Below are positions 1,316 through 21,401 of a stretch of DNA of 21,401 nucleotides, one piece after another. Position 1 is the stretch's first letter. Each line of letters starts with the position of its first letter. The stretch is from a virus. The notes below the pieces were generated by a model. That model saw only the letters and a list, made by a program, of their open reading frames with translations. It was not told the DNA's origin and ran no database searches. A program made the position numbers and the translations under genes. The stretch covers positions 1-21,401 of the IMG/VR virus record IMGVR_UViG_3300042860_000624; one strand, given 5' to 3'.

Positions 1316-1864
1316 CTACAATATTTCTACATCATACCAAGTAAATCTAAAAGATACTTGACAAGTCATTGTTGTTTCGGCGTTGTCAGTCACGCTAAAT
1401 TCTAGAGAACCAAGATATGTTGGAAACATGTCATGGAACTTCACGCGAAACCTTGGATTATTTTTATTTGAGTAAATTGTTAGAGTTCCGTCAGTGTAAA
1501 CTACTGGACGTCTGTTGTTAGCAAGGCTTTGCTCGTAGCCAGATTTAGTGTTTCTTGCTAAATCACGATATTCTTTAAAGTCTGTTGGGAAAGTTGCACC
1601 GCGAATCCAATTGTGCATCTCTAACCATGTGCTCATGTCCTCGTTAATCAGGAACTGAACATTAAACGCATCATAAATTGCTTTTTCGCCTGGATGAAAA
1701 ACATCAATGAATGGCGTGAATCTCTGAACTTCAGTCAAGGAGATTCCTGGAAGGGATGCAGTTTGACAAAAATAAGTTACATTTGGCATGCGATCAAATA
1801 CCATTTGAAACTTGTGTGGTTGTAACAAATCGGTATTGATCGGATTTCTTGTTAGAATTGTCAT
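1316..1864 (-). CDS. gp3: Tail completion and sheath stabilizer protein gp3 (tail-tube fold)
   Basis: The product is 182 residues; T4 gp3 is 176. The segment INEDMSTWLEMHNWIRG (about residues 73-89) resembles the corresponding part of T4 gp3 as I recall it, and the ATASLPGI-like N-terminal strand and C-terminal beta strands fit the gp3/gp19 tube fold. gp3 caps the distal end of the tail tube and, with gp15, stabilizes the sheath. Its place between gene 23 and uvsY matches marine T4-like phages. It could instead be annotated as a second gp19-family tube protein, because gp3 and gp19 share a fold. It has its own late-type promoter candidate beyond the gene 23 terminator. The only Shine-Dalgarno-like sequence is a weak GGA. 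Confidence 0.78.
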   Translation of the reverse strand: MTILTRNPINTDLLQPHKFQMVFDRMPNVTYFCQTASLPGISLTEVQRFTPFIDVFHPGEKAIYDAFNVQFLINEDMSTWLEMHNWIRGATFPTDFKEYRDLARNTKSGYEQSLANNRRPVVYTDGTLTIYSNKNNPRFRVKFHDMFPTYLGSLEFSVTDNAETTMTCQVSFRFTWYDVEIL

Positions 1865-1977: not shown

Positions 1978-3315
1978 TTACTGGTTGATATTCAACACTT
2001 GGAACTTACGGTAGTATACGTTTGTACCGTCTGTTAGAGCACCAAGACCAGCTGCTGTTGCGAATGGGTTTGCAACGAGACCATAACGTGTCTTGAAGCC
2101 GACCTTTGGCTGGTAAGTTGTTGGATCAACTGCACGTACCATCTGTAGTGGGACGTATGGGCAGTAGAACAAGCCAGCGTCATAAGGTGTTACACCCTTA
2201 TAACCAACAACAACATAATCTGCGCCAGCGACAGAATATGGGTCAACATAGACTTTGATGCGTCCGAAGAGCACACCAGCGAATGTGTTGCCTGTATCGT
2301 CTACAACGAGATTTGTATTGTTTGTTAGTGCTGAGTTGTAATCGAGAAGACCTGTCATTGCAAGAGCTGATGCAACATCGGTTGAAACGATGATCATGTT
2401 ACCCTTACCGCGACGTGTGTCTTTTGCGATCTTGTTTGCAGCTTGTTCGATACGGAATAGAAGTGACTTGTACTTCTCAACCTGCCAACGACCAGATGTG
2501 CCACCTGCATCTCCGATTACGGAGCTTGAAAGGTTAACAACATTTGCCGTTACGCCAGTTACACCGACGTTTGCTGTTGCATAGATTGTACGAACAACTT
2601 CGCGGTTGATTTCAGCAAGAATTTCAGTTGACAAGATATTTGTCAATTCTGTTTCTGCGTCGAGACCGTGAACTGCCTTGAGGTCTTGTGCAAGTTCGAG
2701 CGTGTATGATGCTTGCAAGCCACGTGAATTGGCTGTAACAGCAACGCGATCGATCTGGAAGCCCATATATGCGAGTGTTGCATCTTCGGCATAGGCTGTT
2801 GTGAAGCCATGACCTGTGTTTGCAAGACCGTAGATTGAGCTGTTTGCATTACCTGGGTTGACAGCTGTGCTGAATGCAGTCACTGTACCATTACCAGAGT
2901 GAGTGTTTGCTTCCTGGAATAGTGCTTCACCAGCGCGAGCAGATGCACTTGCGAACACTGATCGCATTGCGAAGATCAAACCTGTTGGACCTGTCATTGG
3001 CTGAACGCCGCAGATGTCATAAGCCATTAGGTTTGGCATAGAACGACGAACGAGTCCGATTAGAACTGGATCGAAGCCTGTAACGCCAGAGTTTGCTGCG
3101 CCTGAAAGACCACTGATTCCTGCTGTTCCCATGGCATTAGCTGGTGATGCTTCCCATAGGTTTTGCATTGAACGTGATTCTTCTTGTAGGGCACGCTCTT
3201 GATTTTCTAGAACGAGTGCAGTAACTGCGCGCTTGTAAGGGTCGCTGATTCCTGGGAGTTCTGGGTGATCAAGAACTGGTGCCCACTTCTTTGCATATGT
3301 TTCGTTAATATACAT
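1978..3315 (-). CDS. gp23: Major capsid protein gp23
   Basis: The product is 445 residues, typical of marine T4-like major capsid proteins and shorter than T4 gp23 (521). The N-terminus WAPVLDHPELPGI and the later regions GLVRRSMPNLMAYDICGVQPM and the Gly/Ala-rich capsid core are recognisable gp23 features. gp23 forms the hexamers of the head and is cleaved by gp21 during maturation. The best matching site is LWE at residues 53-55, followed by ASPANAMG, which would give a mature start at A56. The ATG is preceded by GAGGAAAC at good spacing. The gene follows the scaffold gene by 25 bases and ends at a strong terminator, as expected for the most highly expressed virion protein. Confidence 0.97.
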   Translation of the reverse strand: MYINETYAKKWAPVLDHPELPGISDPYKRAVTALVLENQERALQEESRSMQNLWEASPANAMGTAGISGLSGAANSGVTGFDPVLIGLVRRSMPNLMAYDICGVQPMTGPTGLIFAMRSVFASASARAGEALFQEANTHSGNGTVTAFSTAVNPGNANSSIYGLANTGHGFTTAYAEDATLAYMGFQIDRVAVTANSRGLQASYTLELAQDLKAVHGLDAETELTNILSTEILAEINREVVRTIYATANVGVTGVTANVVNLSSSVIGDAGGTSGRWQVEKYKSLLFRIEQAANKIAKDTRRGKGNMIIVSTDVASALAMTGLLDYNSALTNNTNLVVDDTGNTFAGVLFGRIKVYVDPYSVAGADYVVVGYKGVTPYDAGLFYCPYVPLQMVRAVDPTTYQPKVGFKTRYGLVANPFATAAGLGALTDGTNVYYRKFQVLNINQ

Positions 3316-3340: not shown

Positions 3341-6300
3341 TTAGGCTTTTGGAGCCGTTTTAGAGATTGATTTAACATAACGAGCCATGACAGAGTTTGT
3401 TTGTTCTACTTCAGGTTCTTCATTAAGCATTGCTTGCTGAATTTCCTTTACCTCACTTCTCACTTGTACTTTAGTTGGGAAGTAGTTCTCGCGTAGTACA
3501 GCGAGTTTTTCTTCAAAATCACCTTCTGCGGTGAACTCCACACTCTCTGCGAGTGATTTCATTTTTTCTGCTTGAACTAGTGTAAGTCCTTCGCAGAAAT
3601 TATTAATTGCTTTTTCTTTCTTAACAGTGTTAAGTTCTTCTTGAAGATCGGCAATTGCGAGTTCTTGTGCCCCAATATATTCTTGTGCTTGAGTGCTTAG
3701 ATCTGCAAGTTCTGTTGCAAGTGTTTCTGCAACATCAACCTTCTCTTCAGGAATTTCGATGTAATGTTCTTGGAATAGAGCGCGTAGACCAGAGATGAAG
3801 TCTTCAGCGAGTTCTGAACGTAAACCTGTTTCGATAGCAACTTGATTTTGTGCCATCCACTGATCGACAACATAGTTGAGATATTCATCAACTTGTTCAG
3901 TTAGTTCGCCCTTCATATCTTCATATGCATTGGCAAGAACTTCTTCGTTGTCAGCCATTACTTGCTCTAGAATTGCTTCAACACGTGATGTTACAGCTGA
4001 TTCAAAGATCAAAGTTGCTTTGACACGGAAATCTTCTGAGAGTGATTCACCGTTGAATAGAGCATCAACGTCTTCTCTCATATTACCTTTATATTGATTG
4101 ACTGTTTCTTTGATTGAGTTCTTTCTTTGTTCTTGAATTTGCTCATCAGTCAAACCGTCATTTAAATCATCAATCATTTCATATTGTTCTTCATGTTCTT
4201 CTGACATTGTCTGTCCCTCATTTTTTGGTTTTCCAGAGCGATCAGTCCCTGGTTTCCAGCCAAGTTCTTTTGCCTTGAATAAATTTCCTAATTTATTTGC
4301 AACACCTGCAAGTTCATTTGGAATTGCTTTTCTTAAACGTGTCTTTTCACCAGTTGCGGTTCTCATCAAACCCTTACCAGCTTGTGCTGGTTTTGCTGGT
4401 TGTTGTGATTGGATATCTTGAACATCTTTATCAAGTTGATCAAGCATAGATTTACCGTAATCGTTTTCTGCTTGCTCAGGTGCTGCTGGTTCTTGAGCAG
4501 GTTCAACTGCTGGAGCTGCAGCTGCTGGAGCAGCTTTCTTGGCTCTTAGTTGATTCAAAAGATCCATATTTCCTTGTGCAGATTTTGGTCTATTCTTATA
4601 TGCTTCTGGATCCAATTTACGAATCTCAGCGCCGATCTTACCATACTTTTGCTCATCGCTCATTGCAGCTGGTTTAGATGGTTTAACTGGTTTATCTGGT
4701 TTTGCTGGAGCATTAGAACCTGTTAATGCATCTACTGCTTTAGATGCGCCGTAACCAGCAGCAACGCCAGCGGCAGTTGCTGCAGCGGCTTTACCTTTAC
4801 CGATTCCACCAGCTGGTCTGGCAGCTGGTCTGGCAGCTGGTCTGGCAGCTGGTGTTCTACCTCTACCGCCTGCACCTCGTGCACCTCGTCCGCCTCTTAA
4901 TAGATTTAATCTGCTTTCCATCAATGAATCAATGTACTCAGCTTCTTCATCTGATAATTGATCAACGATGATTGCAGCTTCTTCCTCTGAAAGAGTTGAA
5001 AGATGATCGATAAACTCAAGAGCATTTTGCTCAAGTAGTGACTCTTCTTCGTTTGTTTGTTCAATTTCCATTGATTCACCCATTGTGCCTTTTTTATTGA
5101 AGTGACGTTGTAATGCAAGATTTGCTTCTGCAGAACCTGCTTTAAATTTACCTTTACCCAGAACTGAATCAACTTTTGATTGATTGAGTCGATCTGATTT
5201 TGATGCAAACATTCCACCGCTTGATGATGCAAGATTTGCTCCAACAGAACCTTGTTGTTTTGGGTTAGCAGCAGACTTTGCTGCAGGTTTAGCAGCAGGT
5301 TTTGCAGCTGGTGTTGCAGCTCTTGCTGCTGGAACCATATTAGATGCTAGAGAAGCAACTCTTCTTGCTGCACCACCAGCAACGTTTCTAGCAGCTCCAG
5401 CGACGTTTCTAGCAGCTGCTGAAGCGGTATCACGTACAGCCCCTGCGGCATTTGCTAATCTTGCTTCGCCTTTGTCGTTGTATAGTGCTTTGCCGATTGC
5501 TGCCGCAGCTGGATCCCATGCAACACGTGCTACTGGATCTGTAGCCTTTGAAATTGCTTTACCAACTTTTGATTTGCTGGCTGCTTGCTGCAATGAACCT
5601 TCTGATCCAAGTGTTGATTTTATGCCAGGAATATAATCTCTGGCAATGTCAGCGCCAACAGCTGCTAATCCAGCACCAGGTAACATACTTGCTGCACCTA
5701 ATCCAGCGCCAACATAATCTCCAGCACGAAGTCTATCGGCAGCATAACCTGCGCCGAGAACTGTTCCAAGAACGGGTACTGCTCTAGCGAGTTTGCTGCT
5801 CTTGAGTTTGCTCCAAGCACTTGGTTTTGCTTGAGCAGGTGCTGTTCTTGCTTCTGCAAGACTCATTAAAGAAACAGCATAAACTAGTTGTTCTTCATTT
5901 AAATCTGAGAAATAGTTATCAAGTTCTTCATCTGACAACTCATTAATAGCAGAAACAAATGCATCTGATTCATTGACAATGTTTTCATAGGAATCATCAT
6001 CAAGCTGTTCAATGTTTTGATTTGTTTGATTGACAATTTCTTCTAGAAGAACATTAAAATCATTTTGTTTTACTGATTCGGCAACACTACGGGCTGCACC
6101 AAATCTGTTGCGCAATGCAAGTAATCTTTGTGCTCCAGCTGGAGGTGTTTGCGGTCTTGGAGCTGCAGCAACTCTTTCTTCTGGTTCATCATCCGCTGCT
6201 GCTGTGGCAACATTATCTTCTGCACCACCTTCGTCACCACCTGCTGCTTGTCTTCTTGATTGAGCAAGTGCGCTAAGACCACCGCTTACTGAACCTAATG

Positions 6301-7507
6301 CTGTATTTTTAATATCTGCAGATCTGCCGCCAGCAAGTTTTGTTGAAGCAACGTCGCCAACCAAATTACCTAGCGTGTTTGAGCCAGTTCTCGCTGCTAC
6401 TGCACCGCCGAGTCCACCGCCAATAGATCCAGCAGCACCACCGATAGCACCTTGTTTGAAACTGCCACCTTGCAATTTTGACATCACGCCGCCCTTGAGT
6501 GCTTCTTTACCAGCAGCCAATGCGCCTCTGCCAAGAACTGTTGAACCGAGTTTGCCAACTCCAGCACCTACTGCTTTACCGAGTGCGCTACCTGCAATCT
6601 TTGAACCAATGCCTGAAACAGCTTTACCAAGTGCAGTACTTGCGAGTTTTCCACCAAGTTTTGCTGCGATACCACCAACACCTGGAAGTGCAAATGATAG
6701 TGCTGTGCTCAATAGTGGATTTTTGAGAACTTTACCAGCAACTTTACCAACAGCCTTTACACCCTTTTTGAGTGCCTTACCAATTTTCTTTAAGAACTCA
6801 ACAAGATATTCTTCGTTGAGAGAAGAAAGTTGAATTGCTTGAATTAATTCTTCTTCAGTTAGATTTGCGACATAGTTATCGAAATCTTCCTCAGAAAGTG
6901 TTTGCATTTCTGTGATGAAGTTTTGTGATTGCTCTTGAATTGAAGCAAATTCTTCATCTGTGAATTGTAGTTCACCAAATTCTGCGATAACGCTTTCGGC
7001 AACTAGATTGATAACATTGTCTTCGCCAATTTCTTCAGACAATGTTTCTGCAAATTTCTCGTTTACTAGATCTTCACCATACTCAGCTGTATATTCTTCC
7101 ATAATGCTATGGAATACATTTTCATCACCATATTCTGCGATGAGGCTTTCAAGAACCATTTCTGCGCCGTGTTCTTGAATTAGTTCTTCCATCAACTCGT
7201 TTTCGTCTTTTTCTTCAGATTCCATTTCTTCTGATTCGTCGCCTTCTTCAGCTTCACCCTCACCAGACATTGGTGACACGGTTTTCATTGGCTCAGCAGG
7301 CACTCCTGGACGACCTGGTTTTGGAGAAACATTTACAAGACTTGAACTTGCAGATCCAATAGGAGTTACTGCGCCTGTAGTCATTTCACCGCCAAGGTCA
7401 ACAGCAGTCTGCGCAACTGTAGCCATTGGAACTGGTTCTTTGCCAGCAGCTGCAACTGATGCTGCAAGAATTTCTGCTGCCGATTCATGTAATGTTTTAT
7501 GCGCCAT
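3341..7507 (-). CDS. gp22: Giant prohead scaffold gp22 with a roughly 1100-residue N-terminal polyprotein extension
   Basis: The gene sits between protease gp21 and capsid gp23, exactly the gp22 slot. At 1388 residues it is about five times T4 gp22 (269). Residues about 1101-1388 look like a normal scaffold: acidic, helical and coiled-coil-rich, with LNE near the C-terminus (1361-1363). The N-terminal part has three acidic-then-cationic modules. The acidic segments are 81-235, 480-552 and 810-864. They end in L-x-E sites at 230-232, 550-552 and 862-864, matching the T4 gp21 cleavage rule. The blocks that follow are Lys/Gly/Ala-rich (236-420), Ala/Lys/Arg-rich with AKPAAK repeats (560-800), and RGG/ARPA-rich (865-930). 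Three copies of a roughly 30-residue LSEEE repeat mark the modules. AGGAGT precedes the ATG and a TATAAATA late promoter lies just upstream. The frame is uninterrupted and has a strong internal start at codon 1101. A scaffold role for the C-terminus is well supported; the extension's role is inferred. Confidence 0.88.
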   Translation of the reverse strand: MAHKTLHESAAEILAASVAAAGKEPVPMATVAQTAVDLGGEMTTGAVTPIGSASSSLVNVSPKPGRPGVPAEPMKTVSPMSGEGEAEEGDESEEMESEEKDENELMEELIQEHGAEMVLESLIAEYGDENVFHSIMEEYTAEYGEDLVNEKFAETLSEEIGEDNVINLVAESVIAEFGELQFTDEEFASIQEQSQNFITEMQTLSEEDFDNYVANLTEEELIQAIQLSSLNEEYLVEFLKKIGKALKKGVKAVGKVAGKVLKNPLLSTALSFALPGVGGIAAKLGGKLASTALGKAVSGIGSKIAGSALGKAVGAGVGKLGSTVLGRGALAAGKEALKGGVMSKLQGGSFKQGAIGGAAGSIGGGLGGAVAARTGSNTLGNLVGDVASTKLAGGRSADIKNTALGSVSGGLSALAQSRRQAAGGDEGGAEDNVATAAADDEPEERVAAAPRPQTPPAGAQRLLALRNRFGAARSVAESVKQNDFNVLLEEIVNQTNQNIEQLDDDSYENIVNESDAFVSAINELSDEELDNYFSDLNEEQLVYAVSLMSLAEARTAPAQAKPSAWSKLKSSKLARAVPVLGTVLGAGYAADRLRAGDYVGAGLGAASMLPGAGLAAVGADIARDYIPGIKSTLGSEGSLQQAASKSKVGKAISKATDPVARVAWDPAAAAIGKALYNDKGEARLANAAGAVRDTASAAARNVAGAARNVAGGAARRVASLASNMVPAARAATPAAKPAAKPAAKSAANPKQQGSVGANLASSSGGMFASKSDRLNQSKVDSVLGKGKFKAGSAEANLALQRHFNKKGTMGESMEIEQTNEEESLLEQNALEFIDHLSTLSEEEAAIIVDQLSDEEAEYIDSLMESRLNLLRGGRGARGAGGRGRTPAARPAARPAARPAGGIGKGKAAAATAAGVAAGYGASKAVDALTGSNAPAKPDKPVKPSKPAAMSDEQKYGKIGAEIRKLDPEAYKNRPKSAQGNMDLLNQLRAKKAAPAAAAPAVEPAQEPAAPEQAENDYGKSMLDQLDKDVQDIQSQQPAKPAQAGKGLMRTATGEKTRLRKAIPNELAGVANKLGNLFKAKELGWKPGTDRSGKPKNEGQTMSEEHEEQYEMIDDLNDGLTDEQIQEQRKNSIKETVNQYKGNMREDVDALFNGESLSEDFRVKATLIFESAVTSRVEAILEQVMADNEEVLANAYEDMKGELTEQVDEYLNYVVDQWMAQNQVAIETGLRSELAEDFISGLRALFQEHYIEIPEEKVDVAETLATELADLSTQAQEYIGAQELAIADLQEELNTVKKEKAINNFCEGLTLVQAEKMKSLAESVEFTAEGDFEEKLAVLRENYFPTKVQVRSEVKEIQQAMLNEEPEVEQTNSVMARYVKSISKTAPKA
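4205..4219 (-). promoter_or_regulatory. Internal ribosome-binding site and ATG inside gene 22
   Basis: GAGGG (4215-4219) lies 7 bases before an in-frame ATG (4205-4207) at codon 1101. Initiation here would make a 288-residue protein, residues 1101-1388, almost the size of T4 gp22 (269) and starting where scaffold-like sequence begins. This suggests a normal-length scaffold translated alongside the long form. The Shine-Dalgarno match could be chance, since it also encodes N-E-G-Q-T in the long frame. Confidence 0.45.
4811..4853. repeat. 12-bp tandem repeat within gene 22
   Basis: AGCTGGTCTGGC occurs three times exactly (4811-4846), followed by a partial copy to 4853. It encodes the ARPA repeats near residues 886-899 of the long scaffold protein. 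It keeps frame and could expand or contract by slippage. Confidence 0.85.
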
Positions 7508-7531
7508 TTATAACTCCTGACGAGGTATTAT

Positions 7532-7543: not shown

Positions 7544-8188
7544 TTATAACTTTGACAAAAAGTTCTCGAAGATCTTTAAAGAGATGTCATCAAGCTGCTT
7601 TTGTTTTGCTGTCTTAATTTCTTCATAATATGCATTGACATCAAGCTCTCGTACTAATCCGTTATCCCAAATCCACTCCTTTCCTTCCATGATTCCCTGT
7701 ACAAAAGCACCAGGAGCAGAAGGATCTGCAACGATATCGGCTGCTGTAGCCAGGTAAAAGTCTGGTTGCACGATATTTGTACCGTTTACATTCTTCAAAG
7801 AACCCATACCGCGTGAAGATACTCCAAGAGTAGCCCCTGCTTCCATAAGATTCTTTGCGATCTTACCCATAGGCGTATCAAGAACTTTTGCTTTACCTTC
7901 AAAGACGTTTCCGTTCTTTGTGATATTAGTAATCATATGAGAGACGCGCTCTAGATTAATCGTAGGAGACTCTGGGTGACCAAGTTCGCCGAATGCACGG
8001 TTCTTATCCACATATTCCTTCATATAACGATTTACTTCGTTTTCGAGAACGCTAACTGGATATGAACGTCCATTACGGTTCTTTGTCTCAGCGACAAGAA
8101 ATGGACCTTGAATATAAAGTGTCTTAACACCGTTATTTTCTTCGGTGATATACTTTACTTCTTCAACTGTTTCTGTAATAAGTTTCAT
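7544..8188 (-). CDS. gp21: Prohead core serine protease gp21
   Basis: The product is 214 residues; T4 gp21 is 212. Features of the phage prohead protease family with a herpesvirus-protease-like fold are visible: GPFLVAETKNRNGRSYP near 28-44, GELGHPE with the likely catalytic His71, and LGVSSRGMGS with the likely catalytic Ser at 124 or 125. gp21 cleaves head core and shell proteins after L/I-x-E once the prohead is assembled, destroying the scaffold so DNA can enter. AAGGA lies before the ATG. The gene is four bases from the 302-residue core protein upstream and is followed by the giant gp22, which is rich in L-x-E sites. Confidence 0.96.
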   Translation of the reverse strand: MKLITETVEEVKYITEENNGVKTLYIQGPFLVAETKNRNGRSYPVSVLENEVNRYMKEYVDKNRAFGELGHPESPTINLERVSHMITNITKNGNVFEGKAKVLDTPMGKIAKNLMEAGATLGVSSRGMGSLKNVNGTNIVQPDFYLATAADIVADPSAPGAFVQGIMEGKEWIWDNGLVRELDVNAYYEEIKTAKQKQLDDISLKIFENFLSKL

Positions 8189-8192
8189 GTTT

Positions 8193-9101
8193 CTATTCCT
8201 TTAATCCAAGAGAGGCTCTTCTTCTCATTGATCTTTTTCTTTTCATAAGAGCACGAGCCATCTTTGCCTTTCTTTTAATCTTACCACGACGTTGACCACG
8301 CTTTCTGCGAAGTCTTTCAGCCATTGACATACGTTTTAATTTACCGCCACGAATGGTATAACCTTTCACAGCAGAAAGTCTTTTTCTTCTTTGTACCTTA
8401 CCACCGCGCACACGAGCCTTTACAATCTTTGTTCTACCCTGACGCATAACGTTTGGATTGCGACTTGCTTCATCGAGTTGATCAACTTCGGATTCTTCTT
8501 CTGTTGCAGACTTCGAATGAAGCGCATCATGAGCGGCGCGAATTGATTCTGGTGTTTTCAGCAGTTCAATACCACGTTGACGGCTTAATGCACTTCTTTG
8601 TTGTTCTAGATCAAATGCACGACCCAACTTCTCTGCTGCGCTCATACGGCGAGCTTCGCTCAAATCAACAGTTGCGTTGATAGCAATTGCTTTCTTATAA
8701 AGATCTAGTTTAGCAGAAGCAATCTCGTTCAATCTAGCAGCAATGCCTTCTTGAATGTTTGCTTTCGACATGTATTCTTTCTTTTCTCGCGATTTTAAAA
8801 TTCTTGGATTTAAGTATTGCATCAAAGCGATTCTTTTTTCTTCTTCATGATCAAAAAGTTCTTTATTATTCTCTTCATCCTCACCATCATTATCTTCTTC
8901 ATCATTTATTTCTGGCATTTCAGCTTTCTTTTCTTCGTCAAATGCGCCTTTCTTTTTCATCTTTAAAATTTTATCAGCGAGTGTGTCTGTTGATTTGATT
9001 CCAAACTTTCTGTTTTCGATATTTTGACTGTTTGCGCCTTTCCCTTCCTCATAATCGGAACCATAACGATCTTCATATTTTTCGTTAATATCGTTACTCA
9101 T
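8193..9101 (-). CDS. Head core protein with acidic middle and protamine-like basic tail (gp68 position)
   Basis: The product is 302 residues, with no recognised domain, encoded between the gp67-like gene and gp21, where T4 has gp68 (141). Residues about 64-88 are strongly acidic and residues 120-200 are helical. An L-D-E gp21-type site at 209-211 then precedes an extremely basic tail. By my count 38 of the last 91 residues are Lys or Arg and only two are acidic. The tail contains two RGGK motifs and long runs such as RLRRKRGQRRGKIKRKAK. This design suits an internal head protein whose tail is released or exposed by gp21 and binds packaged DNA; that role is inferred. The gene overlaps the upstream gene by 8 bases, which suggests translational coupling. 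Confidence 0.82.
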   Translation of the reverse strand: MSNDINEKYEDRYGSDYEEGKGANSQNIENRKFGIKSTDTLADKILKMKKKGAFDEEKKAEMPEINDEEDNDGEDEENNKELFDHEEEKRIALMQYLNPRILKSREKKEYMSKANIQEGIAARLNEIASAKLDLYKKAIAINATVDLSEARRMSAAEKLGRAFDLEQQRSALSRQRGIELLKTPESIRAAHDALHSKSATEEESEVDQLDEASRNPNVMRQGRTKIVKARVRGGKVQRRKRLSAVKGYTIRGGKLKRMSMAERLRRKRGQRRGKIKRKAKMARALMKRKRSMRRRASLGLKE

Positions 9102-10104
9102 CTTTAATTAACTCAACAAATTGAATAATACGATTAAATGTATCTGCATTTTCTAAAAGCATGTCGACCATCTTATCTTGATTTTCTTGGCTTAAAGATT
9201 CAAAAACATTTTGTAAGGAATTGATTGTATTTTGGTCAAGATAAACTTCTTCACCAGTTGTAAATGTAAGGATAGAATAATCACCTTCTTCTTGTAAATG
9301 CATTGCAGCATGATCATCACGCAATGATTGTGGCGTTTTCATGTCTGGTAAATTGCGATATAATGCTGCAGTTTTTTCTGATGAGATATCTGGATTTTGC
9401 GTTACTTCTCTGCCTACTCTTTTAATTGAAGGGTCATTATTTGATAATCCTTTGATATAAGCATGTGCACCAAGTTGTCTCAAAAAATTTCCTTTTGATT
9501 GTTTATTTTGTTGCTTTACAATACCTTCGTTTAATCTTGCTGATGTTGGTGCGATGCCAGTAGATGGCATGCCAGCATAATTTACGCTTGTGAATCCTCT
9601 TCCCATTGCATCATAAGGAACAGTAAATGACAGACCATATTTGTTATCAGTATACATTGCTACTCTTTGTGCATTTGGAAACTGACGAATGGCTTGTCTC
9701 TTTAAGATAAGCATTGCAGGTGGTTGAAATTCTTCGTTTAATAATTCTTCGTTTAATTTTTTTACTGATTTTTTACTTGTTGTTGCAACATCACGAACAA
9801 TTTTTTTAATCTGATTGTCTGATGCATTCACAATTGCACTGATTGGAACTACTCCACCAACCATTGTCACTGCATCACGATGCTGCTTTGATAGTCTTTT
9901 AAGAACATCATATTGTGATGATTTTGGATTACTTCTTGTTGTCTTAAGATAATTCAGAATTGCGCGTGAACTCGTGCCTGCTGAGACAGGTAATCTCAGA
10001 GCATTTGTAATATAAGAAACTCTTTGTGAAACTACTCTTTTTAATTCTGTGTTTTCACGAGCTTCTTCTAATGTTTCTGTATTTTCTTCGTTATTCTGTT
10101 GCAT
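9094..10104 (-). CDS. Putative head core protein with several gp21-type cleavage sites
   Basis: The product is 336 residues and I do not recognise it as a named T4 protein. It lies among the prohead core genes, overlapping the gp67-like gene by 14 bases and the next gene by 8. L-x-E sites of the kind used by gp21 occur at 12-14, 117-119, 122-124 and 191-193. Residues 18-116 are basic. Residues about 128-165 (LILKRQAIRQFPNAQRVAMY onward) look like a small folded beta domain. The C-terminus 286-336 is acidic and helical, with a FESLSQENQDKMVDMLLE stretch reminiscent of the LSEEE repeats of the giant gp22. It may be a second internal head protein precursor. Confidence 0.78.
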   Translation of the reverse strand: MQQNNEENTETLEEARENTELKRVVSQRVSYITNALRLPVSAGTSSRAILNYLKTTRSNPKSSQYDVLKRLSKQHRDAVTMVGGVVPISAIVNASDNQIKKIVRDVATTSKKSVKKLNEELLNEEFQPPAMLILKRQAIRQFPNAQRVAMYTDNKYGLSFTVPYDAMGRGFTSVNYAGMPSTGIAPTSARLNEGIVKQQNKQSKGNFLRQLGAHAYIKGLSNNDPSIKRVGREVTQNPDISSEKTAALYRNLPDMKTPQSLRDDHAAMHLQEEGDYSILTFTTGEEVYLDQNTINSLQNVFESLSQENQDKMVDMLLENADTFNRIIQFVELIKDE

Positions 10105-19351: not shown

Positions 19352-19359
19352 TATTTAGT
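19352..19359 (-). promoter_or_regulatory. Late-type promoter candidate for the neck genes
   Basis: ACTAAATA on the minus strand begins at the stop codon of the upstream glycosyltransferase and lies about 24 bases before the gp13 ATG. It shares the TAAATA core found before genes 18, 19, 67, 22 and 3. It has two mismatches from TATAAATA. Confidence 0.4.
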
Positions 19360-20105
19360 TATTCGACCAATCTACCCTCTCGAGAAGTGTAAGTCTTGTT
19401 TGGATCCATGTGAGCAAATTGTTCCCAGTTCGGCTCACCCTCAAGAATTCGTTTCCCAGTGGATTCTTCGCCGATGTGGTTTATCATATTACTTCCATCA
19501 GAATTCTTTAATTGAGCACTATACATCTGATGAAAATGATCAAGATAAACCATTATCATTCCCTCGTTAATATTGAATCCCCAATATTCCCTAAATGGAT
19601 ATTCTATGATACTCTTTCGATACAAACTAAAGATAATTGGAAACGTTTTTGTATTTTTAGAATAATAGTATTCCCCAAATTGAACGTCGTTTGATTCGAT
19701 ACAGGAAGGTTTTTCGTGAAAATACCATGGCTGACGTTGAAGGACAACTGAAGCCATCTTTTCATCGGATTCTAAAACACTGATTAAATCGTCTAGTCTT
19801 GTAGGATTAATTAACACTACATCATCTTCTTGATGAAGAATATAGTCATAATTCATTCCTTTGAGTGCAATGAAAAACTCAGTCCAGTTTACCGAAAGAC
19901 CTTTGTTTTCTTTATTGTACCAAACTTTAAATCCATAACGTTTTTCGATAAGATCGAAGATTGCATCATTTCGCGTTCTTGGATAGTCGTCGATGATAAT
20001 ACGATCTACCTGATGGTCGCCATAATCTAAATTCTTGAGTGAATCTAGAGTCGGAAACAGATACCGAATCCGATTACACGAGAAAATTACATGAAGAATT
20101 TTCAT
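19359..20105 (-). CDS. GT-A-fold glycosyltransferase
   Basis: From the ATG at 20103-20105 the product is 248 residues. It opens with a Rossmann-like strand (ILHVIFSCNRIRYLFPTLDS), has IIIDD at 36-40, and a DxD-type metal/nucleotide-sugar site QEDDV at 92-96, preceded by NYDYIL as in family 2 and related transferases. GFNINEGM near 176-183 may be part of the acceptor site. It probably transfers a sugar from a nucleotide donor; the acceptor is unknown. The start overlaps the previous stop codon (TGATG), so the pair is co-translated. It lies between an oxygenase-like gene and gp13. T4 has no equivalent gene here. Confidence 0.83.
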   Translation of the reverse strand: MKILHVIFSCNRIRYLFPTLDSLKNLDYGDHQVDRIIIDDYPRTRNDAIFDLIEKRYGFKVWYNKENKGLSVNWTEFFIALKGMNYDYILHQEDDVVLINPTRLDDLISVLESDEKMASVVLQRQPWYFHEKPSCIESNDVQFGEYYYSKNTKTFPIIFSLYRKSIIEYPFREYWGFNINEGMIMVYLDHFHQMYSAQLKNSDGSNMINHIGEESTGKRILEGEPNWEQFAHMDPNKTYTSREGRLVE

Positions 20106-20659
20106 CAATACTCAGTATTGAAAAAGAAAGTTTGAAATAGTCTTCCGTCTTGAAGACTGCTTCCGAAATAATCTAATGATGCATGATAAAGATTTCCGCG
20201 ATATAAAACGATACGATTATATTTGTTTGCAACATAGTCTGTCATTTCCCACTTTGTATAATCATATCCATCATGAATTTTTTCGCGTTGAATAAACTCA
20301 TACTCTCCGCTTTCTTTATGTCGATAAATAGCTGTACCTGACGACAACGGAGCATCTGGAGTGAGATAACAAACGCCAGCCCAAGTGTTGAACTGATCCG
20401 CGTGAATCCATGTACGATCTTTTGCAGTGCAAATTTGGAATGCGCCAGTATACCCTGAATCTTCAAACCAATAGGTGATCTTTCCACCAGCATTTTGAAT
20501 CACATGCTGAATTGATGCCTTTAAATCTTCTGAAAGATACGGTTTAGTCCTCATTCCAGGATAGTTACCAGAGACCTCAAACTTCTGAGAAAGAGCATAC
20601 TCTCTGACCGCATCTGGATTGCTATAAAAATCGTCGACGATAATAAGTTTTGTTTTCAT
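20105..20659 (-). CDS. 2OG-Fe(II)-oxygenase-like protein (DUF6445-like)
   Basis: The product is 184 residues from the ATG at 20657-20659, which has AGGTG at good spacing; upstream TTG/ATG starts would overlap the previous gene. The jelly-roll oxygenase pattern is visible: H86-A-D88 within WIHADQF as a candidate HxD iron site, GVCYLTPDAPLSSGTAIYRH as core strands, distal H159 in LYHASLDYFG, and R173 in QDGRLFQTFFF as the likely 2-oxoglutarate-binding Arg. This resembles the DUF6445 group. Such proteins are common in marine T4-like phages, where they may hydroxylate a protein, nucleotide or sugar; the substrate here is unknown. The two flanking sugar-transfer genes suggest a glycan-related role. 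Confidence 0.75.
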   Translation of the reverse strand: MKTKLIIVDDFYSNPDAVREYALSQKFEVSGNYPGMRTKPYLSEDLKASIQHVIQNAGGKITYWFEDSGYTGAFQICTAKDRTWIHADQFNTWAGVCYLTPDAPLSSGTAIYRHKESGEYEFIQREKIHDGYDYTKWEMTDYVANKYNRIVLYRGNLYHASLDYFGSSLQDGRLFQTFFFNTEY

Positions 20660-20666
20660 TTTACAC

Positions 20667-21401
20667 CTAGTAATGCATATATTTACCAGAAACTCCATCC
20701 CACCCTGATACAATCCAATCTGTTTCTATGACCTGTTTTTCATACGGTCGCGTCAGATAATATGATAGAGTTTCAATATCGTAATGCTTCATTTCTTCAC
20801 TGTTCATGAATTGCATTGATGCTTCGTTTATATCTATCATTTTATCTAGATGCTGAGAACCGAATGCATAGAGAACAGTACAATATTGTTTTAATAAATT
20901 GTGGTTTTCTATTTTTCTTCGATCTACCATCCAATAGTTCCAAGCATCATTCCACGGAAATTGTAATGGTTTCTTGAAGAAGATTTTGTCGATATTCTGT
21001 TCAGTGAACAGTTTGTCATTGAAATCATAGTAAAAGTATCTTCCAGTAGCCTTAATAATATAGTCATAGTTGACAAGTTCTTTTTTAAATTTAGTATAAA
21101 ATGTGTTGAGTAGCAAATTCTCACAATAACTCTTATTGAGGTGTGTGTTAACTTCTTCAAAAGTCGCATATGAAAGTTCTTTGAGGGAAACGTATTCTAC
21201 GTTCTTCAAGATTGAGAAATCTGGAAAATATTTCTTGTAATCTGCTGATGTGTCTACAACAATGATTCTGGCATCTGGCAAACAATTCTTTAGGCTATTG
21301 ATTGTGAAGATCGTATGACGATATCTTTCTTCTGCATCAAATTTTGATCGTGTTTGGCTGTATGTAAATTTACCTTCGCGTGGTTGAATTGAAGAGCCGA
21401 C
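20667..21401 (-). CDS. Glycosyltransferase-like protein, N-terminus cut off by window edge
   Basis: The frame runs open from the right window edge (245 codons visible) to a TAG at 20667-20669. No initiation codon is needed inside the window; the TTG near 21281 is internal. The visible part starts in a helix (residues KFDAEERYRHTIFTINSLKN), continues with a Rossmann-like strand ARIIVVDTSAD, and later has YDYIIKATGRYFYYD, a K-x-T-G-R-Y pattern seen in several uncharacterised glycosyltransferases, then FPWNDAWNYWMVDRR. It is read into the oxygenase-like gene with a 7-base gap. The function is tentative. It is placed with two other genes of likely sugar modification. Confidence 0.6.
   Translation of the reverse strand, partial: VGSSIQPREGKFTYSQTRSKFDAEERYRHTIFTINSLKNCLPDARIIVVDTSADYKKYFPDFSILKNVEYVSLKELSYATFEEVNTHLNKSYCENLLLNTFYTKFKKELVNYDYIIKATGRYFYYDFNDKLFTEQNIDKIFFKKPLQFPWNDAWNYWMVDRRKIENHNLLKQYCTVLYAFGSQHLDKMIDINEASMQFMNSEEMKHYDIETLSYYLTRPYEKQVIETDWIVSGWDGVSGKYMHY

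Follow-up and report, generated by a model that had tools for sequence, protein, structure and literature searches.

The window analysed here, an entire virus record of 21,401 bases (IMG/VR record IMGVR_UViG_3300042860_000624), carries in the position of the T4 scaffold gene gp22 a single open frame of 1388 codons. We propose that this one frame gives two products: a long scaffold fusion carrying basic cargo that the prohead protease gp21 would release, and a plain scaffold made from a nested start. We put the probability of this reading at about 60%. What bears on it directly is the frame itself and its conservation, a pattern of alternating modules, the statistics of L/I-x-E tripeptides ([LI]xE) and the fact that the nested site is conserved.

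The steps that we infer, from initiation at the nested site through cleavage to retention and ejection, would run as follows. Translation from start 1 would yield the long fusion, made up of the gp22 N-terminus, degradable acidic segments in alternation with basic blocks of cargo, and the gp22 scaffold domain, and translation from the nested site at codon 1101 would yield a plain 288-residue scaffold. Both products would join the prohead core through the scaffold domain that they share, the fusion bringing its cargo into the head. There gp21 would cut after L/I-x-E, dicing the scaffold and the acidic linkers into small peptides able to leave, and the basic blocks (~24-27 kDa, isoelectric point [pI] ~10) would stay in the head as internal proteins. 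Some of these blocks, at least, would probably pass into the cell envelope, or breach it, together with the DNA.

The Long gp22 Frame and Its Relatives

The long product matches the Pfam scaffold family T4_CASP at residues 1143-1380 (E = 9e-62) and the head scaffold family phrog_237 at residues 1024-1383 (E = 1e-69), and the scaffold core domain was matched in all ten of the long members tested. The gene order is gp23, long gp22, gp21, two head genes, gp20, which places gp22 between gp21 and gp23 and preserves the T4 order gp20 ... gp21-gp22-gp23. By domain and position the protein belongs to the gp22 family; in size and architecture it lies outside it, since long products (948-1388 residues) exceed the ~270-520 residues of the family, a size that is typical rather than strictly defining and that the nested 288-residue product would fit. 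The original prediction called the gene about five times normal size, which holds against T4 gp22 (269 residues), but against its own relatives, mostly 311-523 residues long, the excess is about three- to fourfold.

We gathered gp22 frames around matches of gp21, the gp22 core and the gp22 N-terminus. Among 116 distinct complete frames, 103 are 174-523 residues long (all but one at least 311) and 13 are 948-1388 residues long, with none of intermediate size between 523 and 948. Another 58 frames, also distinct and complete, lie near cyanophage P-SSM7, and each measures 337-352 residues. The search for other phages with an extended gp22, suggested at the outset, yielded 12 that are complete and distinct from that of the window, along with several incomplete frames built in the same way. 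The long gp22s form one clade in the tree (support 100/100); L148, the one entry there that lacks the label of a long form, is a contig of 2 kb, and its match starts right at the edge of that contig. On this tree the long form has a single origin, and the order of its modules is conserved within the clade. No photosystem gene, a possible clue to the host, was present in the 14 partial contigs, a result that is uninformative.

The claim that a single 1388-codon frame fills the gp22 slot is borne out. Its unusual size alone could prompt the suspicion of an assembly, sequencing or frameshift artefact, or of chance read-through of a pseudogene, and we found no other support for that explanation. 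A separate IMG/VR contig, L004, holds the identical 1388-residue frame; identical parts of it occur in five other contigs (L005 and L006 are identical partial copies); and the 12 other complete long frames differ by in-frame insertions and deletions. The ratio of nonsynonymous to synonymous divergence (dN/dS) lies below 1 in all informative comparisons of the insert described below, and at 0.27-0.65 in the informative, more divergent pairs; therefore the insert is coding sequence under purifying selection. An artefact is refuted as far as sequence data allow, and we regard its probability as negligible.

Inserts mostly evolve faster than the gp22 core. In two pairs the silent sites themselves differ, with insert dS at 0.19 versus 0.03 for the core (L094/L096) and 0.40 versus 0.04 (L011/L104), or ~6-10 times the core value, which suggests that segments of the insert have been exchanged by recombination.

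Acidic and Cationic Modules Inserted in gp22

Residues 1 to ~80 of the long protein are ordinary gp22: with LHESAAEILAAS, DLGG and G.PAE.MK, they are common to the normal-sized gp22s of sister loci. Because this N-terminus is shared, the extra sequence represents an insertion of ~1000 residues in the gp22 linker, and the N-terminal extension of the original prediction, in which a complete gp22 followed some 1100 added residues, did not hold. Its description of those residues as alternating acidic and cationic segments fared better: the first ~80 must be excepted, and the alternation beyond them is conserved in ten diverged relatives. The protein begins with a segment resembling a capsid targeting sequence (CTS), MxHKxLHE/SAAEILAAS (the slash marks the candidate cut, at E8), in which L6 and E8 are invariant in the clade.

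Ten diverged representatives, whose cores are 72-80% identical to that of the window, share one arrangement, which runs from the gp22 N-terminus through acidic module 1, a cationic block, acidic module 2 and a variable block to the gp22 core. Acidic module 1 ends in IQLxSL[ND]E; the first cationic block is rich in Lys, Gly and Ala and in most members begins near FLKKIGKALKKGVKAVGKV; acidic module 2 is short (LSTLNEEQLDxFIxxLSEEE); and the variable block is mostly basic, L094 being an exception with a second block that is about neutral. A third acidic module, absent from the nine other members aligned, and an Arg-Gly-Gly block are additions in the gp22 of the window (Table 1). Computed pI values are ~4.1 for its acidic segments and 10.2-10.3 for its cationic segments of 24-27 kDa; a hydrophobic stretch lies near residue 264 of block 1 and a hairpin-like element at ~573-625 in block 2. 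The glutamates singled out at the start (E232, E552, E864) do belong to [LI]xE sites, each where an acidic segment gives way to a basic one, and E237 is a further site.

A Probable Nested Start at Codon 1101

The sequence TGAGGGACAGACA precedes the ATG of codon 1101, and each of the 17 long sequences that reach this point has an in-frame ATG in this position, with GAGG upstream of it. The site is found in none of 58 short gp22s. It is kept in L016 despite 57 extra residues between the nested start and the core. L016 is also the only one of the ten representatives with PQQKPQQMPQQ-type repeats between its nested start (residue 882) and core (978). The nested product, at 288 residues, is close in size to T4 gp22 (269 residues), with which it aligns over 202 residues (E = 3e-20).

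Within the divergent stretch around the site, E1097 and M1101 are invariant and the neighboring codons vary, down to EGQTM and EELHM. The codon of E1097 is GAG in all ten representatives, although these genes use GAG for just 20% of their Glu residues; under a null model of synonymous codons, GAGG-ATG was kept in at most eight of the ten in 20,000 draws, versus ten of ten observed. Taken alone this codon evidence is moderate, because GAG is likewise the sole codon in five more invariant Glu columns, each of them within the conserved core, which counts against the two-product reading. On the sequences as a whole we consider a functional nested start at codon 1101 quite probable.

The original prediction overlooked this site, whose conservation makes unlikely a simple model with every scaffold molecule fused to cargo. 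That model could be kept if GAGG-ATG were left over from a junction between ancestral genes or had arisen by chance. GAGG is indeed a modest Shine-Dalgarno sequence, and the kinship of the long sequences on the tree makes the site look more conserved than it is; yet near the site only the always-GAG E1097 and M1101 are invariant among varying neighbors. In addition, T4 has 576 copies of gp22 (PMC9026906), and a 145.6-kDa scaffold at that number would put ~84 MDa in the core, a figure that is arithmetic and not evidence and that favors dilution by a short form. We find it improbable that all of the scaffold carries cargo.

A Putative Signature of Processing by gp21

In T4, gp21 cuts after L/I-x-E, dicing gp22 into fragments and stripping short N-terminal propeptides from proteins that are retained (PMC9026906). 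The gp21 of the window retains the GEL.HP and GVSSRG blocks of the T4 enzyme. Its presumed sites are about twice as frequent as composition predicts both in the acidic segments of the insert (132 [LI]xE versus 67.8 expected, 1.95x; acidic module 1 contributes a clade total of 102 versus 50.7) and in the scaffold core (133 versus 65.0, 2.05x); T4 gp22 has 16 versus 5.7. The control tripeptide [LI]xD is not enriched (18 versus 18.8 in acidic segments, 0.96x; 17 versus 15.8 in the core, 1.07x), and none of the other spacings tested is enriched as much as [LI]xE. Among the window proteins compared, gp22 has the strongest excess (z = 4.2). Cationic block 1, in turn, is depleted, with two sites in the clade versus 7.7 expected (P = 0.011, indicative only because the sequences are related), and both lie at its acidic end, in the window. 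The predicted release of internal peptides by gp21 gains from this twofold enrichment and from the depletion of block 1.

Several further observations weigh against scaffold-borne cargo. Cationic block 2 is not significantly depleted (9 sites versus 11.2 expected), low Glu content partly explains the scarcity of sites in the cationic blocks, sequences that are related count as independent ones in the null models, and several other window proteins show a mild [LI]xE excess. AlphaFold gave no confident fold for residues 91-440, which span module 1 and block 1 (mean predicted local distance difference test score 42.7), and the model was too poor for a fold search.

An alternative is an insert that serves size only, a polyampholyte that enlarges the core, sets the size of the head and is wholly removed or degraded during maturation, with no cargo. 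It is established for T4 that gp22 is cut to pieces, most of which are cleared (PMC9026906), the insert is of low complexity and predicted to be poorly ordered, and blocks 2 and 3 diverge strongly and vary in length. Conservation of block 1 and its avoidance of cleavage sites are harder to account for in this way; blocks of 24-27 kDa would presumably be large for exit through pores; a nested short scaffold would dilute the long form that sets the size; and the LysM domain found in one member, L106, makes little sense in a pure spacer. We judge a pure size function unlikely.

Candidate Cargo

In L106 (6834-7499) the second block of the long gp22 contains a LysM domain (30.7 bits versus a Pfam cut-off of 20.9). 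In the window, the element at ~573-625 resembles part of large virion proteins whose genes lie close to those of the baseplate in cyanophage ACG-2014j and Xanthomonas phage X1; the likeness is weak in a database search (E = 0.03-0.05) and clear in direct pairwise comparison, where the E-value applies to one sequence only. Inserts of two members have weak matches to the tape-measure family phrog_167, and Pfam and PHROG searches of the window insert returned no confident family. The putative cargo differs by lineage. LysM, which binds peptidoglycan, together with the hydrophobic, hairpin-like Gly/Ala stretches, suggests that it consists of ejected, envelope-acting proteins rather than of DNA condensers only.

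Profile searches of every open reading frame (ORF) in the available loci, which are partial contigs, detected no stand-alone cargo genes; module 1, cationic block 1 and module 2 matched only gp22 frames of the long clade.

Comparison with Known Systems

In lambda C/Nu3 and herpesvirus UL26/UL26.5, the C-terminal part of a long product is also made separately, from a nested start, as scaffold, and the N-terminal part of the long product is the protease. Here the protease has a gene of its own, and the N-terminal part would instead hold cargo that can be cut out. With T4 gp22 the long protein shares the T4_CASP domain, the position between gp21 and gp23 and dense L/I-x-E sites; it differs in the ~1000 residues inserted between N-terminal segment and core, in its cationic blocks and in its conserved nested start. 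T4 gene 21 has internal initiation (NC_000866 annotation; PMC9026906), a nested start in the neighboring head gene, but that one shortens the protease by 22 codons (NC_000866) and involves no cargo.

The T4 internal proteins IPI-III and Alt are likewise basic; they are directed to the core, where gp21 frees them by cutting after L/I-x-E, as we suppose for the blocks described here, and the long gp22 itself starts with a short CTS-like segment ending LHE/S. The T4 proteins are encoded by separate genes, each with a CTS of 10-19 residues, whereas here the basic blocks are joined to the scaffold. This is not the layout of a CTS gene: the cationic blocks follow acidic modules of ~40-150 residues inside gp22, and no sequence similarity to IPI-III or Alt is shown. 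In our assessment the closest published analogues are the head-protein propeptides of SPN3US. There, as in phiKZ, long and multiply cut propeptides precede abundant internal or ejected proteins; they differ in that each gene carries a single cargo, that the specificity in SPN3US is A-x-E, and that no counterpart of gp22 is confirmed (PMC10052503, PMC5694885). In giant phages, according to published work, many cuts help clear propeptides from the head (PMC5694885). The open literature, subscription journals not being covered, yielded no report of a cargo-bearing gp22.

A broader and more tentative idea, which we hold at somewhat less than even odds, is that gp22 may be a modular platform for loading cargo, in which cassettes of degradable acidic spacer and protease-resistant basic cargo are inserted and swapped, the nested start determines how much of the scaffold is loaded and how much plain, and maturation of the prohead frees phage-specific ejected proteins. 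If true, this would be a natural counterpart of the laboratory loading of T4 heads by targeting-sequence fusions, with the scaffold itself as carrier and one gene controlling the ratio of carrier to cargo. It would account for how internal proteins could be loaded by some T4-like phages that have no separate genes for them, and would offer a way to package proteins in phage heads by means of the scaffold. It would also allow a clean test of which parts gp21 dices and which it leaves intact.

Feature Coordinates and Neighboring Genes

Table 1. Positions in the window of the long gp22 gene, its parts and two adjoining head genes
Feature	Position	Strand	Details
Long gp22 frame, complete	3341..7507	-	1388 residues, 145.6 kDa, single ORF, ATG to stop
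Shine-Dalgarno AGGAG of long product	7514..7518	-	TCAGGAG-like in most of the clade
Ordinary gp22 N-terminus, residues 1 to ~80	7268..7507	-	Shared with short gp22s L020, L021, L113-L116
Acidic module 1, residues ~81-232	6812..7267	-	12 [LI]xE sites; ends IQLSSLNE/
Cationic block 1, residues 233-489	6041..6811	-	24.8 kDa, pI 10.3, Lys/Gly/Ala
Acidic module 2, residues 490-552	5852..6040	-	Sites E489/E490, E523, E538, E552
Cationic block 2, residues 553-826	5030..5851	-	27.3 kDa, pI 10.2
Acidic module 3, residues 827-864	4916..5029	-	Sites E826, E841, E864
Cationic block 3, residues 865-1100	4208..4915	-	24.3 kDa, pI 10.2, Arg-Gly-Gly/Ala-Arg-Pro
Nested Shine-Dalgarno GAGGGA	4214..4219	-	GAGG ends 8 nt before internal ATG
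Nested frame from ATG codon 1101 (window 4207)	3341..4207	-	288 residues, 32.8 kDa, T4-sized gp22 scaffold
gp21 prohead protease (Peptidase_S77)	7544..8188	-	Domain match; presumed processing enzyme
gp23 major capsid protein	1978..3315	-	Candidate site LWE/ASPAN

A 302-residue protein (8193-9101, minus strand) occupies the T4 gp68 position between gp20 and gp21; after QLDE/ASRN (site E211) it has a terminal block of 91 residues with a net charge of +36. Its tail, RRRASLGL, resembles that of gp68, KRRKALGL; BLAST gave no significant match between the two proteins. The adjoining 336-residue head-region protein (9094-10104, minus strand) has no family, its C-terminus matching phrog_4187 weakly and phrog_696 more weakly. 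On the other side of gp23, before uvsY, lies a second tail-tube-like gene (phrog_45; 1316-1864, minus strand) in addition to gp19, and Pelagibacter phage Mosig has a similarly annotated tail-tube-like gene at the same place. Past the neck genes, where the window ends, a glycosyltransferase family 2 gene and a DUF6445 gene adjoin a third ORF without a family (19359-21281, minus strand), all with TTG starts as called.

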